NCBI GenBank assembly: GCA_021846285.1
Contig: JAJZCB010000016.1
Span: forward strand, 1-48,709
Direction: 5' to 3'
Source: Bacillota bacterium
Lineage (GTDB): Bacteria > Bacillota > Bacilli > Alicyclobacillales > SLC66
DNA: 48,709 nucleotides
This document shows, piece after piece, positions 5,671-44,801 of this stretch; positions within the stretch are counted from its first letter, which is position 1; each line of letters opens with the position of its first letter. Below the pieces are notes generated by a model. That model did not search any database. It had not been told where the DNA came from and saw only the letters and a program-made list of their open reading frames with translations. The position numbers were made by a program, and so were the translations under genes.

Positions 5671-6523
5671 ACCTTTGCGGCAGTTGGTCAGAGCATCCGT
5701 TGACGACCAGATTGTGGGGAACACAAGGCTGATCGCCGTCGCCAGCGGTAAAGGAGGCGTTGGCAAGTCCAATATTGTGCTGAATCTCGCCTTGACGTTG
5801 GCTGACCGCGGAAGTCGAGTTGCGATTATTGATGGGGATCTGGGGTTTTCCAATTTGGATATCCTGTTGGGATTGCGTCCACAGTACAGTTTACAGGACG
5901 TTTTGGACAACAGGATAGGATTGGCGGATGCTCTGACCGAGGGCCCGCGGGGCATATGGTTTGTGTCTGGCGGCGGCGGCGAGACGCTTATGGAGGACCA
6001 GTCCAATTGGCAGTTGCGGCGACTGGTCGAACAACTGGCAGAGATCTCCGGTCGGTTCGACCGCGTCTACATTGATTTCGGAGCGGGCTTTGGAAGACAT
6101 ACGGCTGAACTCATGGGCCTCTGTGATGAACTGTTGCTGGTGACGACGCCAGAACCTACCGCGCTGGCTGATGCTTACGCGCTGTTAAAATTGGTGCTGC
6201 AGGCTGGGGGTGCGCCCAGGACGCGTCTGTTGGTCAACAGAGCCGCCACCGTATCCGCCGGAATGGATGCCAGCCGCAAGTTGCAGCTCATTGTCCGACA
6301 GTTTCTGCGGCTGGACATGGATTTGCTTGGATACTTGCTGGAGGACGCTGCTGTGCAGCGGGCCGTGGCAAGACAGCAGCCGTTTGTGCTGTCTGAACCG
6401 CAGTCACTCGCAACTCGCTGCCTGGCGCAGATCGCCAAGAATGCGTTGTGCGATCAACCCATGGAGCCTAGTGAACGCCAGGGCATCAAGGCTCTGCTGC
6501 GCCGCTTTATCTCCTGGCGCTAA
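5654..6523 (+). CDS. flhG: Flagellar number ATPase FlhG (YlxH, MinD-like)
   Basis: A 289-residue MinD/ParA-type ATPase. It has the deviant Walker A motif ASGKGGVGKSNIVLN at about residues 33-47, and IIDGDLGFSNLDILLG as the switch I/Walker B-side motif. An earlier in-frame start exists at 5585, but ATG 5654 is preferred for two reasons: GGAGGTG at 5641-5647 lies 6 bases upstream, and it puts DQAEPLR three residues from the N-terminus. FlhG proteins carry a DQAxxLR activator helix at that place, which stimulates FlhF. The gene overlaps flhF by 17 bases. In B. subtilis cheB follows; here a CheW-like gene follows. Confidence 0.92.
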   Translation: MPDQAEPLRQLVRASVDDQIVGNTRLIAVASGKGGVGKSNIVLNLALTLADRGSRVAIIDGDLGFSNLDILLGLRPQYSLQDVLDNRIGLADALTEGPRGIWFVSGGGGETLMEDQSNWQLRRLVEQLAEISGRFDRVYIDFGAGFGRHTAELMGLCDELLLVTTPEPTALADAYALLKLVLQAGGAPRTRLLVNRAATVSAGMDASRKLQLIVRQFLRLDMDLLGYLLEDAAVQRAVARQQPFVLSEPQSLATRCLAQIAKNALCDQPMEPSERQGIKALLRRFISWR

Positions 6524-7001: not shown

Positions 7002-7618
7002 CGCACCGCCTATACATGGAGGAGAGAATTGCCGACGCGCTTCGCGAACTTGGCAACATCGGGGCGGGCCATGCCGCTGCCGCATTTTCTGAATTCGTCG
7101 GCGAACCCGTGACCATGCGGGTGCCGTTAGTTGAATTGGTAGCGTTTGACGACGTTACGGAGGCATTGGGAGGACCTGAGGCGCCTGTCGCTGTTACGTA
7201 TGTCAGGGTTTCGGGAGACGTGGCGGGGCACCTGTTTGTGATTCAGCCGCTGGACGGCGCACGGCGGTTGTTGTCATCGCTGGCGCCCGCGACGGGAGAG
7301 GAGTGGCCGCTTAGCGCCATGGAAGAATCTGTGCTAGAGGAACTTGGGAACATCATGGCGGCCCACTATCTGTCTTCTCTTGCCGATTTCACGCGACTTA
7401 CGATGCGTCCATCCGTGCCGTCCGTCGCAGTCGACATGGCACAGGCGATCCTGGCTATGGGAATGTTGGAGGAGAATCCGTTGGGTGACTTCGCCCTGGT
7501 GATTCACACTGCCATCAATGTTCCGGAGGAGCAGGGGAGAGCGCACGTCTTTCTGTTTCCTTCACCAGGAACGGAACGCGTGTTGCTGAGGTCCTTGGGC
7601 ATCGGAGACAGCGTATGA
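6998..7618 (+). CDS. cheC: CheY-P phosphatase CheC
   Basis: A 206-residue CheC-family protein, which removes phosphate from CheY-P and binds CheD in the B. subtilis-type adaptation system. Both pseudo-symmetric active-site helices are visible: RELGNIGAGHAAAAFSEF, with Glu17 and Asn20, and near residue 115 ESVLEELGNIMAAHYLSSL, again with the Glu/Asn pair. Start is GTG 6998 inside the stop of the CheW-like gene, preceded by GGGGAGGTG. It overlaps cheD by 4 bases, so the pair should be made together. Confidence 0.93.
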   Translation: MTHRLYMEERIADALRELGNIGAGHAAAAFSEFVGEPVTMRVPLVELVAFDDVTEALGGPEAPVAVTYVRVSGDVAGHLFVIQPLDGARRLLSSLAPATGEEWPLSAMEESVLEELGNIMAAHYLSSLADFTRLTMRPSVPSVAVDMAQAILAMGMLEENPLGDFALVIHTAINVPEEQGRAHVFLFPSPGTERVLLRSLGIGDSV

Positions 7619-28081: not shown

Positions 28082-29087
28082 TGGCGCCTATGCAAACGTA
28101 CTGGAGGCACTTGACGATATTGCAGATCCGCTTCTGATCGTTTGCCACATCAGTCCCGATGGAGACGCGATCGGCGCTGCCTTGGCAGTAGCGTATTACT
28201 GTGATAGCATCGGTCGTTCCTATACGCTGGTCAATGACGATCCCATACCGTCCCGGTATGATTTTTTGCCGGGAACGGACCGCTTTGTGCTCACAGATTC
28301 CCTTTCCGACCCGTTTTCCGTAGTGGTTGCGCTGGACTGCGCGGATGTCAGGAGGATGGGTAAAAGTCGCGGACTGGTTGCAACAGACGCCCGACTGATC
28401 AACATCGATCACCATGAAACCAATGACGGGTTTGGCTCTCTCAATCTCGTGCAGCCAGAGGCGGCAGCCACTTGTCTCGTGCTCTATCGACTGTTTCGCG
28501 CAGGCGATACGGCCATCAGCAAGTCCATCGCACTGGCGCTGTATACGGGCATCGTGTTTGATACTGGCGGTTTCCGTTATAACAACACGACTCCGGAAAT
28601 CCATCTGGCCGCGGCGGATCTGTTGTCGCGGGGCATTGAGCCATTTCTGGTTGCCGACAGGGTGCTGGAAGCGATGACCCGCGAACAGGCTGAACTTGTC
28701 CGTTTGGGATTGGCGACATTGACAGTTCATGACAGCGGGCGGATCGCCTACGTGGCTGTCGATCAGGAGATGCTTGCCGCATCCGGGGCGACTGAAGGGG
28801 ATGTGGAGGTGCTCCTTCCGTATACCAGGTCGCTGTCTGGAATTGAGGTTGGACTTCTCTTTAGGGAGCGGGCCGACGGCTCGATCAAGGTAAGTTTACG
28901 GTCTCGCGAATTCGTCGATGTATCCTCGATTGCGGTCCGTTTTGGGGGCGGCGGGCATGTTCGCGCTGCCGGCTGTGAACATGACGGCCCGCTGGCGGCG
29001 GCGATTGACGATCTTGTGAGTCGCGTGGAACAGGCGGTGGACGAGGCATTTGCAACTCACGGACAGCGGCATTCTCATCTTAAATAA
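28074..29087 (+). CDS. nrnA: Bifunctional oligoribonuclease and PAP phosphatase NrnA
   Basis: A 337-residue DHH-family phosphoesterase. NrnA degrades nano-RNA of a few nucleotides and dephosphorylates 3'-phosphoadenosine 5'-phosphate. DHH-domain motifs are CHISPDGDAIGAAL, VALDCADVRRMG, NIDHHETNDGFG and YTGIVFDTGGFRYNNT; the C-terminal DHHA1 domain ends with GGGGHVRAAGCEH. All metal-binding Asp/His residues seem present. Start is ATG 28074 inside rbfA. It sits between rbfA and truB, an arrangement common outside Bacillus itself, and its end overlaps truB by 38 bases. Confidence 0.93.
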   Translation: MASGAYANVLEALDDIADPLLIVCHISPDGDAIGAALAVAYYCDSIGRSYTLVNDDPIPSRYDFLPGTDRFVLTDSLSDPFSVVVALDCADVRRMGKSRGLVATDARLINIDHHETNDGFGSLNLVQPEAAATCLVLYRLFRAGDTAISKSIALALYTGIVFDTGGFRYNNTTPEIHLAAADLLSRGIEPFLVADRVLEAMTREQAELVRLGLATLTVHDSGRIAYVAVDQEMLAASGATEGDVEVLLPYTRSLSGIEVGLLFRERADGSIKVSLRSREFVDVSSIAVRFGGGGHVRAAGCEHDGPLAAAIDDLVSRVEQAVDEAFATHGQRHSHLK

Positions 29088-30054
29088 GGCTTCTGGCATG
29101 ACATCGCAACACGCGGTGACGGCGGTCAAACGATTGCTGGGGGTCAAAAAAGCTGGGCATTCCGGCATCCTGGATCCACAGGTGACCGGTGTGTTGCCTA
29201 TCTTTCTCGGCAGCGCCACTCGCCTCGCTGAGTATGTGTCGGATCGTCGCAAGTGTTATGAAGCGGTGCTGGAGTTTGGAACAGCCACTGATACGCAGGA
29301 TGCCACGGGAGATGTGGTCGCGCGGGCGGATCCTGCTGGTCTGGATGCGACCTCCGTAAGGAACGCGTTTTCGCGCTTTCACGGTGTACTGCTGCAAAAA
29401 CCGCCTGCGTATTCGGCTCTGAAGATAGCCGGTAAACGGGCGTATGATCTGGCCCGGGCTGGACAGGCTGTGGATTTGCAGCCGCGCCCCATAACCGTAT
29501 TTGAGCTGTCTATAAAAGACATGCATTTATACCCCGGAAACTATTTTGTGCGCTTTTCCATTGAGTGTGGGAAGGGCACCTATATACGCACCATCTGTCA
29601 CGATGTTGGTACGGCAGTCGGCGTACCCGCCCACATGCGCAGTCTTGTGCGAACATGCTCCGGGCCGTTTTCGCTTGCTGAGGCACATTCTCTTGAAGAG
29701 GTGGCGCGCGAAGGATGGAACCTGGTTCTGGCGCCAGACGCGGCCCTAATGCATTGGCCAGCGTTGCATTTGACTGAGGAGCAAATGGCGGCGGTCCAAC
29801 ACGGTCGGTCGGTGAGTTGTCTTGTGGAGGATCTTGATCTTGTGGGTGATGGCAGGGAGGAGAGGACTGCCTTCGCCAAGGCGGTTCTGGAGCCGGACCG
29901 AGACAGCAGAACCCGAGCGGACCTGGACGCGCTGGGTCAACTGGTGCGCATGTATGCGCCGACTGGCTATCTGTGCGCTCTTTACGAGATTGTTGAAGGG
30001 CGCGAGGACAGGCTGCTACTGCGGGCGAAAAAAGTATTTTGTGATGCGGGGTGA
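29050..30054 (+). CDS. truB: tRNA pseudouridine(55) synthase TruB
   Basis: A 334-residue TruB, which makes pseudouridine 55 in the T loop of tRNA. Start is TTG 29050 inside nrnA; GGACGAGG upstream can serve as its binding site. The N-terminal KASGMTSQHAVTAVKRLLG and the catalytic loop GHSGILDPQVTGVLP are seen; the nucleophile Asp42 is kept, but the usual GTLDPxATG reads GILDPQVTG. YSALKIAGKRAYDLARAG and FSIECGKGTYIRTICHD also match. The C-terminal part is less conserved. ribF follows with a few bases overlap or contact. Confidence 0.94.
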   Translation: MQLTDSGILILNKASGMTSQHAVTAVKRLLGVKKAGHSGILDPQVTGVLPIFLGSATRLAEYVSDRRKCYEAVLEFGTATDTQDATGDVVARADPAGLDATSVRNAFSRFHGVLLQKPPAYSALKIAGKRAYDLARAGQAVDLQPRPITVFELSIKDMHLYPGNYFVRFSIECGKGTYIRTICHDVGTAVGVPAHMRSLVRTCSGPFSLAEAHSLEEVAREGWNLVLAPDAALMHWPALHLTEEQMAAVQHGRSVSCLVEDLDLVGDGREERTAFAKAVLEPDRDSRTRADLDALGQLVRMYAPTGYLCALYEIVEGREDRLLLRAKKVFCDAG

Positions 30055-41945: not shown

Positions 41946-43616
41946 TTGAACAGGAATTACACACATAAGTTGTTGATCATCCCTCTCGGCGGATTGGGAG
42001 AGATCGGTAAAAACATGACCGCGTACGTCTATGGCAATGACATGATAGTCGTTGACGCGGGTCTGAAATTCCCGGAAGAAGAAATGCTGGGCATCGATAT
42101 TGTCATCCCTGATATTACGTTCCTGGTGGAGAATAAGCAAAAGTTTCGCGGGTTGTTTTTGACCCACGGACACGAGGATCACATTGGCGGATTGGCGTAC
42201 GTGTTAAAGAGCCTGCAGGTGCCTGTGTATGCAACGAGGCTCACTTTGGGGCTGGTTGAGGGCAAACTGCGTGAACACGGAATACTGGATCAGGCCAAAT
42301 TGATCCCGATTACCAATGAGAGTGAGATCCGGCTGGGTAACTTCACGGTGAGTTGTTTTTATGTGAACCACAGCATCCCGGACGCGGTCGGATTTGCCAT
42401 TGACACCCCAGAGGGCGTGGTCGTGCAGACCGGCGACTTCAAGTTTGACCAGACGCCAGTCGATGGACGCCACGCCGATTATGCGAAAATGACAGGACTC
42501 GGCGCGCGCGGTGTGTTGGCGTTGCTCTCGGACAGCACGAACGCGGAACGCGCCGGGTTTACGATGTCCGAGCGCACGGTGGGCGCAACAATTGACGATG
42601 TGTTTCGGGCCGCTGCAGGACGAGTCATTCTGGCCACGTTCGCGTCCAACATCCATCGCCTTCAGCAGGTGATCAACGCAGCAGAGCGGACAGGCCGTAA
42701 AGTGGCTGTCGTGGGCCGCAGTATGGTCAACAACATCACGGTGGCCAAGGACTTGGGGTACTTGCAAGTGGCGCCGTCCACGCTCATTGAACCGGATGAC
42801 CTGTCACGGTACGATGCCAGAGAAGTGGCGTTACTGACGACGGGCTCGCAGGGAGAACCGATGTCGGCGTTGACGCGGATGGCCCGCGCTACGCACCGGA
42901 AGGTGGAAATTCATCCTGGCGACACGGTGATCATCGCTTCTTCGCCCATTCCCGGCAATGAAAAATCAATTTCCCGAACCATTGACCAGCTGTTCCGAAT
43001 CGGAGCTCACGTCATCTATCAGTCTGTGTCGGGCGTTCACGTGTCGGGTCACGGCAGCCAGGAAGAATTGAAACTGATGCTGAATTTTATCCGACCCAAA
43101 TATTTCGTGCCAGTCCACGGGGAGTTTCGGATGCAGAATCGGCATGCGCAACTGGCTGAGGCGACTGGCGTAAACCCCGACAACATCTTTATCATGGATA
43201 TTGGCGATGTGCTTGAGTTTCAGGGGGGTGTCGCGCGTCTGGGCGGAAAAGTCCAGGCAGGCGCCGTCATGATTGATGGACTTGGCGTGGGTGACGTGGG
43301 CAATATCGTGCTGCGCGACCGCAAGCTGCTGTCGCAGGACGGAATACTGGTTGTTGTAGTAACGCTGTCGAAACAGACGCGCAGTGTACTTTCTGGACCT
43401 GATATCATCTCCAGGGGATTCGTGTACGTCCGCGAGTCAGAGGAGCTGCTCGATGAAGCAAGCCGGATTGTTTCCGCCACTTTGCAGCGGCTAATGACAG
43501 ACAATGTCAGTGACTGGTCTGGATTAAAGACGGGTGTCAGGGACGCCCTGAGTCGCTATTTGTACGAACAGACACGCCGGCGGCCCATGGTTCTCCCGAT
43601 CATCATGGAAGTATAG
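41946..43616 (+). CDS. rnjB: Ribonuclease J (RnjB position)
   Basis: A 556-residue metallo-beta-lactamase/beta-CASP ribonuclease with 5'-3' exo- and endonuclease activity. The zinc motif THGHEDHIGG is near residue 74; the beta-CASP part carries SDSTNAERAGFT, FASNIHRLQQVI, SSPIPGNEKSISRTI and the C-terminal-side HVSGHGSQEELKLML and VPVHGEFR. Length equals RNase J1 and J2 of B. subtilis; the location between dapA and tepA is that of rnjB. J1 or J2 cannot be told from sequence alone. Start is TTG 41946 after GGAGGTGT. Confidence 0.92.
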   Translation: MNRNYTHKLLIIPLGGLGEIGKNMTAYVYGNDMIVVDAGLKFPEEEMLGIDIVIPDITFLVENKQKFRGLFLTHGHEDHIGGLAYVLKSLQVPVYATRLTLGLVEGKLREHGILDQAKLIPITNESEIRLGNFTVSCFYVNHSIPDAVGFAIDTPEGVVVQTGDFKFDQTPVDGRHADYAKMTGLGARGVLALLSDSTNAERAGFTMSERTVGATIDDVFRAAAGRVILATFASNIHRLQQVINAAERTGRKVAVVGRSMVNNITVAKDLGYLQVAPSTLIEPDDLSRYDAREVALLTTGSQGEPMSALTRMARATHRKVEIHPGDTVIIASSPIPGNEKSISRTIDQLFRIGAHVIYQSVSGVHVSGHGSQEELKLMLNFIRPKYFVPVHGEFRMQNRHAQLAEATGVNPDNIFIMDIGDVLEFQGGVARLGGKVQAGAVMIDGLGVGDVGNIVLRDRKLLSQDGILVVVVTLSKQTRSVLSGPDIISRGFVYVRESEELLDEASRIVSATLQRLMTDNVSDWSGLKTGVRDALSRYLYEQTRRRPMVLPIIMEV

Positions 43617-43648
43617 ATCGATGCGTGGACAGACGCCCATGCCGCTTC

Positions 43649-43785
43649 GCGCCGCCATCAGTGGAATGGAAAACCCGCTCGGCCGGAATCGTATGCTGTG
43701 CCGAGGCGAGTTCGGCGCAGCCGTGTTTGAGAAGCGGCGCAGCATACGATTCCGGCGGGCAGACATGATCGTTTTTCAGGATGGA
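43649..43785 (+). repeat. Structured tandem repeat, copy 1
   Basis: First copy of an element of about 137 bases in the 396-base gap between rnjB and tepA (43617-44012). It has a conserved lead-in (ATCAGTGGA, then AAAACCCGCTCG), a 21-bp stem (43682-43702 pairs with 43736-43756, all Watson-Crick except one G-T), a 33-base loop holding GCGAGTTCGGCG and AGCCGTGT, and a tail ending TTTCAGGAT. It is not followed by a T-run at the stem, so it is not a standard terminator. Strand shown is arbitrary. Confidence 0.85.
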
Positions 43786-43795
43786 CTTTCATGCC

Positions 43796-43819
43796 TGAGT
43801 TTTGCGAAGCAAAATCTCA
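43796..43819 (+). other. Small hairpin between the two repeat copies
   Basis: TGAG and TTTTGC pair with GCAAAA and CTCA around loop GAA, with one bulged T at 43815. About 10 bp. It lies in the 37-base spacer between repeat copies and is not part of either. Purpose unknown. Confidence 0.5.
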
Positions 43820-43822
43820 CTT

Positions 43823-43960
43823 GCGCCACCATCAGTGGACTGAAAAACCCGCTCGTCAGGATTCATATGCTGTGCCCGTCGCGAGTTCGGCGTAGCCGTG
43901 TCTGAGCAGGGGCACAGCATATGAATCCGGTCGGCAGGGATGACCGTGTTTCAGGATAGG
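43823..43960 (+). repeat. Structured tandem repeat, copy 2
   Basis: Second copy, offset by 174-175 bases from the first. It has a perfect 19-bp stem (43859-43877 with 43910-43928) and a 32-base loop with GCGAGTTCGGCG and AGCCGTGT. Compared with copy 1, both arms change together at two stem positions (A-T to T-A and G-C to A-T), and copy 1's G-T pair becomes A-T. The remaining bases up to tepA (43961-44012) show no further copy and hold the tepA ribosome-binding site TAGGAGTGA. Confidence 0.85.
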
Positions 43961-44012
43961 TCCTCATCGTTGCGACATACTACCAGTGAGACATAGGTAG
44001 GAGTGACGCGAC

Positions 44013-44801
44013 ATGAGCCGTACCGTTTTGCCACCTGGTATCGGACAGGCCAAGGAATTCCTGAATCAGCAACTGCCGGAACGCGATCGGCCCGATGCGC
44101 TCACTGAACCCCCGCAGACACAGAATACCATTGCGGACAATATCGAGCGACTCGGTCAGACGAATCCTGTGACGGATGAGTCGAACATCTACTGTTTGAC
44201 CATTGTTGGTCAGGTTGAAGGGCACATCGTATTGCCGCCGCAAAACAAGACGACCAAATATGAGCATATCATTCCGCAGTTGGTGGCGGCTGAACAGAGT
44301 GACAAGATTGAGGGCGTGCTGATTATCCTCAATACCGTTGGCGGCGATGTCGAAGCGGGCCTGGCGATCGCAGAAATGATCGCCTCCATGTCAAAACCGA
44401 CGGTTACACTGGTGTTGGGCGGGGGGCACTCGATCGGGGTGCCGATCGCTGTCGCGAGCAACTACTCGTTGATCGCCGAGAGTGCAACGATGACCATTCA
44501 TCCCATCCGGCTAAACGGTCTAGTCATAGGTGTGCCGCAGAGTTTTGAGTATCTGGAGAAGATGCAGGAGCGAGTGACCAAGTTTATCACGGCTCATTCG
44601 CGCATCTCTGAAGAGGACCTGCGACATCTTATGATGACTACGGGGGAACTGGCCCGCGACATCGGCACCACCGTTGTCGGTCGGGACGCCGTTTTGCATG
44701 GGTTGATCGATGCCATCGGCGGGCTCGGGGCGGCCATGCATCAACTCCGTCAGATGATCGACGACTATCGGTCACAGCGACCGCGAGGGGTGGTCCAATG
44801 A
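44013..44801 (+). CDS. tepA: ClpP-family serine protease TepA
   Basis: A 262-residue ClpP-like protein. The Ser nucleophile is Ser140 ([11 protein letters not shown]) and the catalytic His is His163 (TMTIHPIRL); [19 protein letters not shown] forms the oxyanion-side strand. The N-terminal 50 residues are a family-specific extension. In B. subtilis TepA was linked to protein export and sporulation, and lies between rnjB and ylzJ-spoIIIE as here. TAGGAGTGA precedes ATG 44013. It overlaps the next gene by 4 bases. Confidence 0.92.

Follow-up and report, generated by a model that had tools for sequence, protein, structure and literature searches.

A dispersed family of hairpin repeats with a constant internal loop and a sense-strand bias in acid-mine Bacillota

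The rnjB-tepA gap and the family of its hairpins

The window, which is the whole 48,709-nucleotide stretch of DNA analysed here, holds two long hairpins in tandem between rnjB and tepA, and these raise the question of whether a folded element is kept at this locus for the neighbouring gene, is selected as RNA or as a DNA hairpin, or is a palindrome copied by a transposase. The original prediction of two copies with a spacing of 174/175 bases is borne out, the copies being 136-138 bases long at 43649-43784 and 43823-43960; the repeated unit runs beyond these coordinates, with flanking modules that are repeated as well. By open reading frames the gap spans 43617-44012 (396 nt), and its description as the only gap over 300 bases stands for the genes as called here; a second apparent gap between gene calls, 29527-29953, falls within a 334-aa open reading frame (29050-30054). 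The features of the locus are as follows.

41946-43616, + strand: upstream gene, an open reading frame for an RNase J-like protein; the name rnjB was given in the original prediction and fits the translation
43649-43784, + strand: copy 1, subfamily A, with flanking modules; spacing of 174-175 to copy 2
43682-43703, + strand: left stem arm of copy 1, 22 nt, 95% complementary to the right arm
43706-43731, + strand: kernel of copy 1, with GCGAGTT, apical hairpin CGGC-GCA-GCCG and TGTTTGAG
43735-43756, + strand: right stem arm of copy 1, 22 nt
43796-43819, + strand: short accessory hairpin module TGAGTTTTGCGAAGCAAAATCTCA between the two copies, repeated in the genome and sense-oriented
43823-43960, + strand: copy 2, subfamily B, with flanking modules; absent from the same site in the genus mate G001
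43854-43877, + strand: left stem arm of copy 2, 24 nt, 92% complementary to the right arm
43881-43907, + strand: kernel of copy 2, with GCGAGTT, apical hairpin CGGC-GTA-GCCG and TGTCTGAGC
43910-43933, + strand: right stem arm of copy 2, 24 nt
44013-44801, + strand: downstream gene tepA, an open reading frame for a ClpP-like protease; the G001 protein is 99% identical

The paired differences between the copies are real: an A-T pair becomes T-A (GGA-A-TC/GA-T-TCC to GGA-T-TC/GA-A-TCC), a G-C pair becomes A-T (TC-G-TATG/CATA-C-GA to TC-A-TATG/CATA-T-GA), and the G-T to A-T change is a T.G to T-A change within GCTGTGCC/GGCRCAGC. Both copies fold far better than shuffled sequence (z of -5.8 and -5.7, with 0 of 200 shuffles as good), and their loop motif, for which 0.00 matches are expected by chance, has no further match in the window.

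Outside the window, the search of the genome and its relatives that had been proposed returned copies genome-wide. The window's own genome, G000, an acid-mine Bacillota (3.9 Mb, 164 contigs, 98% complete), contains at least 130 matches to a covariance model of the kernel, and its genus mates G001 and G002, which with it form genus g1, contain at least 133 and at least 149; G010 and G005, from two other genera of the same family, contain 36 and 12, and 13 other genomes of that taxonomic family contain none; the three g1 figures are lower bounds, as scoring covered no more than 150 candidates in each genome. Presence is patchy even within a genus, as two genomes of the genus of G005 are without the repeat. 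All genomes compared are metagenome-assembled, and since copies were found by the kernel expression degenerate ones are missed, two of which (L009 and L090) were seen. A BLASTN search of G000 with copy 1 finds about 45 full copies, mainly of one subfamily, and copy 2 finds others; the loop pattern with up to three mismatches gives 119 matches in G000 against 6 for a control pattern. Given that copies are spread over the whole genome, a regulator specific to tepA is rejected, and the suggestion that copies might always lie 5' of tepA is wrong.

A stem-rich model, run on 399 genomes of the class, matched only members of the taxonomic family, and outside it the kernel pattern found only isolated, stemless matches among 398 genomes of the phylum. 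The window's copy has no plasmid or phage match in PLSDB or INPHARED, and a literature search on repeats in this bacterial group found nothing relevant. No Rfam covariance model matches the hairpin repeat at gathering score, so that the statement that no named family fits holds against Rfam; at a relaxed E-value only generic hairpin miRNA and snoRNA models match, far under their cut-offs. (Elsewhere, L101:5008-5170 reaches the gathering score of RF00557, the leader of ribosomal protein L10, and is ordinary.) The original prediction had named a lack of other copies, a lack of covariation and a match to a known family as outcomes that would count against it; other copies and covariation were both found, and no such match was. 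Both hairpins belong to a dispersed repeat family that has had no name and that, its palindromes being intergenic, high in copy number and arranged in mosaic clusters, is REP/BIME-like in the broad sense.

Covariation, the kernel and the strand that folds

In each unit a stem of 19-30 bp carries an internal-loop kernel (GC-GAGUU / UGUYUGA-GC), which is capped by a short apical hairpin that can be exchanged. Stems differ between subfamilies A, B and C and those of G002, G005 and G010, and among 28 diverse copies 16 of the 17 outer pairs, and 18 of 25 pairs overall, carry double-sided changes. The same copies score 0.568 for covariation, where shuffles score 0.162 and slid versions of the alignment at most 0.146, and 94.1% of paired cells are complementary against 72.4% in shuffles. 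Covariation of this kind, in excess of both the shuffled and the slid controls, is what is looked for in a structured RNA, and the selection on folding first proposed from two copies is strongly supported across many.

The kernel, in contrast to the stems, is constant across copies: its left side, GCGAGUU, and its right side, UGUYUGAGC, provide a GC/GC closure followed by GA facing GA, which allows tandem G.A pairs, presumably of sheared geometry. Above it the apical hairpins are swapped within a constant frame (CGGC-GCA-GCCG, CGCGGC-GCA-GCCGCG, GUGC-GAA-GCGC and GCGGCC-UUUA-GGCCGC). Given that the stems are freely replaced and one small loop is kept, the loop is marked as the recognised part. 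Clusters combine copies with short hairpin modules, namely TGAGTTTTGCGAAGCAAAATCTCA and GAAAAA-GCGCC-UGC-GGCG-UUUUUC; the TGAGTTTTGCGAAGCAAAATCTCA module also occurs in L008, L018, L151 and L158, sometimes in tandem and adjoining long hairpins.

The original prediction left it open whether the fold acts as RNA or as a DNA hairpin, and here the sense strand is now favoured, by orientation (below) and by the kind of mismatch that is tolerated. Over 16 outer pairs in 142 distinct copies, the sense strand has 80 G.T against 24 A.C mismatches, an excess that fits RNA, in which G.U is a pair. Single-stranded DNA of the sense strand or strand-biased mutation are weaker alternatives, and a strand-biased mutation pattern could account for part of the excess. 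That the sense strand is read as protein is highly improbable: subfamily A can be read from ATG to TAG through the hairpin, with the open frame MKNPLGRNRMLCRGEFGAAVFEKRRSIRFRRAETIDFPG in some copies, but subfamily B is one base longer and ends early, the frame is lost in B and C, the apical hairpins vary in length by non-multiples of three, and the changes are paired across the stem.

The kernel recurs in phages. A scan of viral contigs gave more than 120 matches to the kernel, nearly all stemless, and most of these are rejected as chance matches. One related phage group, with a GC content of 0.42-0.45 (L330, L333, L369, L412, L413 and L417), contains several hairpins in which the kernel sits on unrelated stems of 11-22 bp, some of them in inverted pairs between phage genes (L330:2530-2740 and 6028-6094; L333:4338-4523 and 7433-7617); the terminase of the group is similar to that of phages found in human faecal samples. 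A second type of hairpin in these phages, GCCGAGUUUU-AAAUC-GUAA-GAUUU-AUUGUCUGAGGC, lies outside the search pattern and keeps the same loop. At two phage sites close relatives are without the hairpin or pair, with partial remnants left. As the kernel pattern was what selected these contigs, independent evidence comes only from the stems and the second type; the phage and bacterial kernels may be alike through homology or through convergence. A broader proposal, offered tentatively and with doubt, is that the constant internal loop is a motif not described before, perhaps an RNA turn to which a protein binds, with freely exchangeable stems; in gut phages as in the chromosomes of acidophilic Bacillota, it would move as a sense-strand RNA or single-stranded DNA hairpin, with no known transposase involved.

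Orientation, turnover and the search for a mover

The copies follow the direction of the genes around them, as called by a simple script written for this analysis. Over the pooled loci, 63 copies between co-directional genes lie in sense and 7 in antisense; in G000, with one copy counted per gap, 39 of 44 co-directional sites are in sense (p=1.4e-7). The same count gives 33/37 in G001, 9/9 in G002, 4/4 in G005 and 4/5 in G010, but most sites are common to G000 and G001 by descent, so that these counts are not independent and the G000 figure is the one to quote. In divergent gaps, 8 of 9 copies are nearer the start of the gene into which they read. No single role is singled out by position within the gap, with 31 copies nearer a stop and 31 nearer a start. 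The antisense copies are few but intact, as exemplified by L156:6376, which scores 94 bits and is kept in its G001 orthologue, indicating that an antisense position is tolerated.

It is possible that the bias follows replication. However, this is unsupported for two reasons: first, beside genes on the minority strand of a contig, 7 copies are in sense and 1 in antisense; second, convergent gaps have 5 copies on the majority and 10 on the minority strand, with no preference for the leading strand. Orientation tracks the gene, not the replication strand, and, since a bare palindrome has no strand, a reader of the sense sequence must be involved in the bias. The explanation preferred here, held with about even confidence, is that the repeat, of the same general kind as REP, BIME and BOX elements, is maintained because its sense transcript folds, or at any rate where it does. 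The units would be carried in untranslated regions of mRNA, at the 5' end, at the 3' end and between cistrons, and the RNA hairpin of the sense strand would be what selection sees. The inverted pairs in the phages speak against an RNA reading, as one hairpin of each pair must be antisense.

Copies are also gained, lost and exchanged. At tepA itself, G001 has copy 1, and a short module takes the place of copy 2. Of 27 sites surveyed in G000, chosen regardless of the relatives, 24 were resolved in G001 and 5 of these are without a copy there (sites 4, 13, 16, 23 and 25); site 2 is counted among the 24 although its gap as called in G000 is also without a copy. Of the 16 sites resolved in G002, no fewer than 8 are without a copy. 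Resolution is best at site 25, where G000 and G001 differ cleanly by 148 nt between two 14-bp ATTTTCCGGGATAG repeats. At several orthologous sites subfamily A in G000 is replaced by subfamily B in G001 within identical flanks, which suggests conversion between copies. In L024 and L100 a tandem repeat of 21-22 nt, GGAAGAAAAACCYGCTTGTCA, lies directly upstream of a copy, and its units are more numerous in G001 than in G000. Local recombination is thus shown. At site 16 (L252 and L161:7391-8183), the long hairpin of G000 has as its counterpart in G001 a perfect hairpin of unrelated sequence, GGGAGAGAACACG...CGTGTTCTCTCCC.

Such turnover, together with genome-wide dispersal and a patchy presence that includes G005 and not its two congeners, is what a purely selfish DNA palindrome of the REP, REPIN or MITE kind would produce, its kernel and stem recognised as single-stranded DNA by a transposase and its orientation set by bias in insertion or survival, with no function as RNA; the inverted pairs in phage contigs, at sites empty in close relatives, point the same way. 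This explanation is unlikely, though a serious contender, given what was found of a mover. The RAYT model NF047646 is over cut-off in 0 of 13 family genomes and the Y1 transposases present are IS200/IS605-type TnpA genes or fragments, leaving copying by a REP-type Y1 transposase unsupported. The stem arms of copy 1 occur in their own genome, by BLASTN, only as partner arms within full copies, and hence no insertion sequence with such ends is seen. No clean target duplication was found at 12 sites that lack the copy in a relative, the difference at site 25 is explained by recombination between its 14-bp repeats, and replication-directed insertion should track the replication strand, which is not observed. 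As a separate observation, IS200-type transposase genes are broken in G000 (C93:11770-12124, C58:46234-46588 and C73:7174-7317) and intact in its genus mates.

Dispersal by reverse transcriptase has been proposed for msDNA-like repeats, and a sense transcript that was copied and inserted in this way would by itself give a sense bias and would accord with the RNA-like wobble pattern. This is very improbable: the reverse transcriptase family PF00078 has no match in G000 (98% complete) or G010, both of which carry the repeat, and the matches in other family genomes do not track its presence.

The hairpins could instead act on transcription, as terminators, attenuators or processive antiterminators in leaders and operons, and their sense orientation in untranslated gaps, convergent gaps included, would suit this. 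In G005, moreover, the halves of the kernel can pair with flanks, AACACGC upstream and TGCTCAAA downstream, giving two folds, and the upstream partner, as AACYCGC, is also found in g1. The element in G005 is about 240 bp with conserved flanks (L214, L217 and L220, around 1500-1600); its upstream AACACGCTACGGGC can pair over 14 bp with the loop sequence GCCCGTAGCGTGTT, and TTTGAGCA pairs with the downstream TGCTCAAA, which excludes the former fold. On the strength of these predicted pairings a switching role may be retained for G005. Nevertheless, an action on transcription is improbable for the family: g1 is without the downstream partner; neither copy in the window has a T-run, the reason for which simple terminators had been set aside from the outset, nor was a terminator-like or promoter-like site found at either; and many copies are found immediately upstream of a start codon, with both neighbouring genes in the same direction, a position in which a terminator would shut off the following gene.

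Related repeats and what the family may do

The repeat resembles REPs, BIMEs and REPINs with their RAYTs in its more than 100 intergenic palindromes per genome, its mosaic clusters of modules, its inverted pairs (here in phage contigs) and a dispersal that is unknown or indirect. However, REPs measure 20-40 bp in all (PMC3733652), whereas here the stem is 19-30 bp; there is no RAYT at cut-off, the conserved internal loop lies high in the hairpin, and orientation tracks transcription. As judged by reading the copies and the alignment, no constant GTAG is apparent at the foot of the stem and CGTC occurs only in the loop of subfamily B. The CGTC-tagged REPs are dispersed palindromes without a dedicated transposase and have a stem of 8-9 bp (PMC3733652); the present repeat shares the dispersal without such a transposase and, in subfamily B, the CGTC, but there the CGTC is inside the loop, subfamily A has none, and the stem is far longer.

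The pneumococcal BOX and RUP elements, like the present units modular and high in copy number, are transcribed as untranslated regions, with an effect on transcript stability proposed, and lie about 61% on the leading strand (PMC3049150); here 89% are in sense relative to genes, and sequence and fold are different. ERIC/IRU and Correia (NEMIS) elements are long hairpins co-transcribed in operons, the effect of ERIC being orientation-dependent and involving an RNase E site and that of NEMIS involving RNase III (PMC2229807). The present repeat is likewise a long hairpin, probably co-transcribed in operons, but its stem varies and its internal loop is constant. The stems and kernels described above are, to our knowledge, without sequence relation to ERIC/IRU or Correia elements.

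By analogy with ERIC, NEMIS and the proposal made for BOX, the most likely action of a folded sense transcript would be on mRNA decay or processing: the stem may block exonucleases or be cut by a double-strand RNase, the kernel may be bound by a protein, and the copies may multiply and turn over as the repeated modules recombine or allow a switch of template from one to another.

Two questions are open for REP-like repeats, how they spread and whether cells use them, and this family separates them. Given that a palindrome alone has no strand, the roughly 9:1 sense bias and the strand-specific wobble point to the transcript. The kernel loop offers a direct target for a protein pull-down, and more than 100 copies per genome, at sites some of which are occupied and some empty in a relative of about 95% identity, provide a natural experiment on the stability of operon mRNA.
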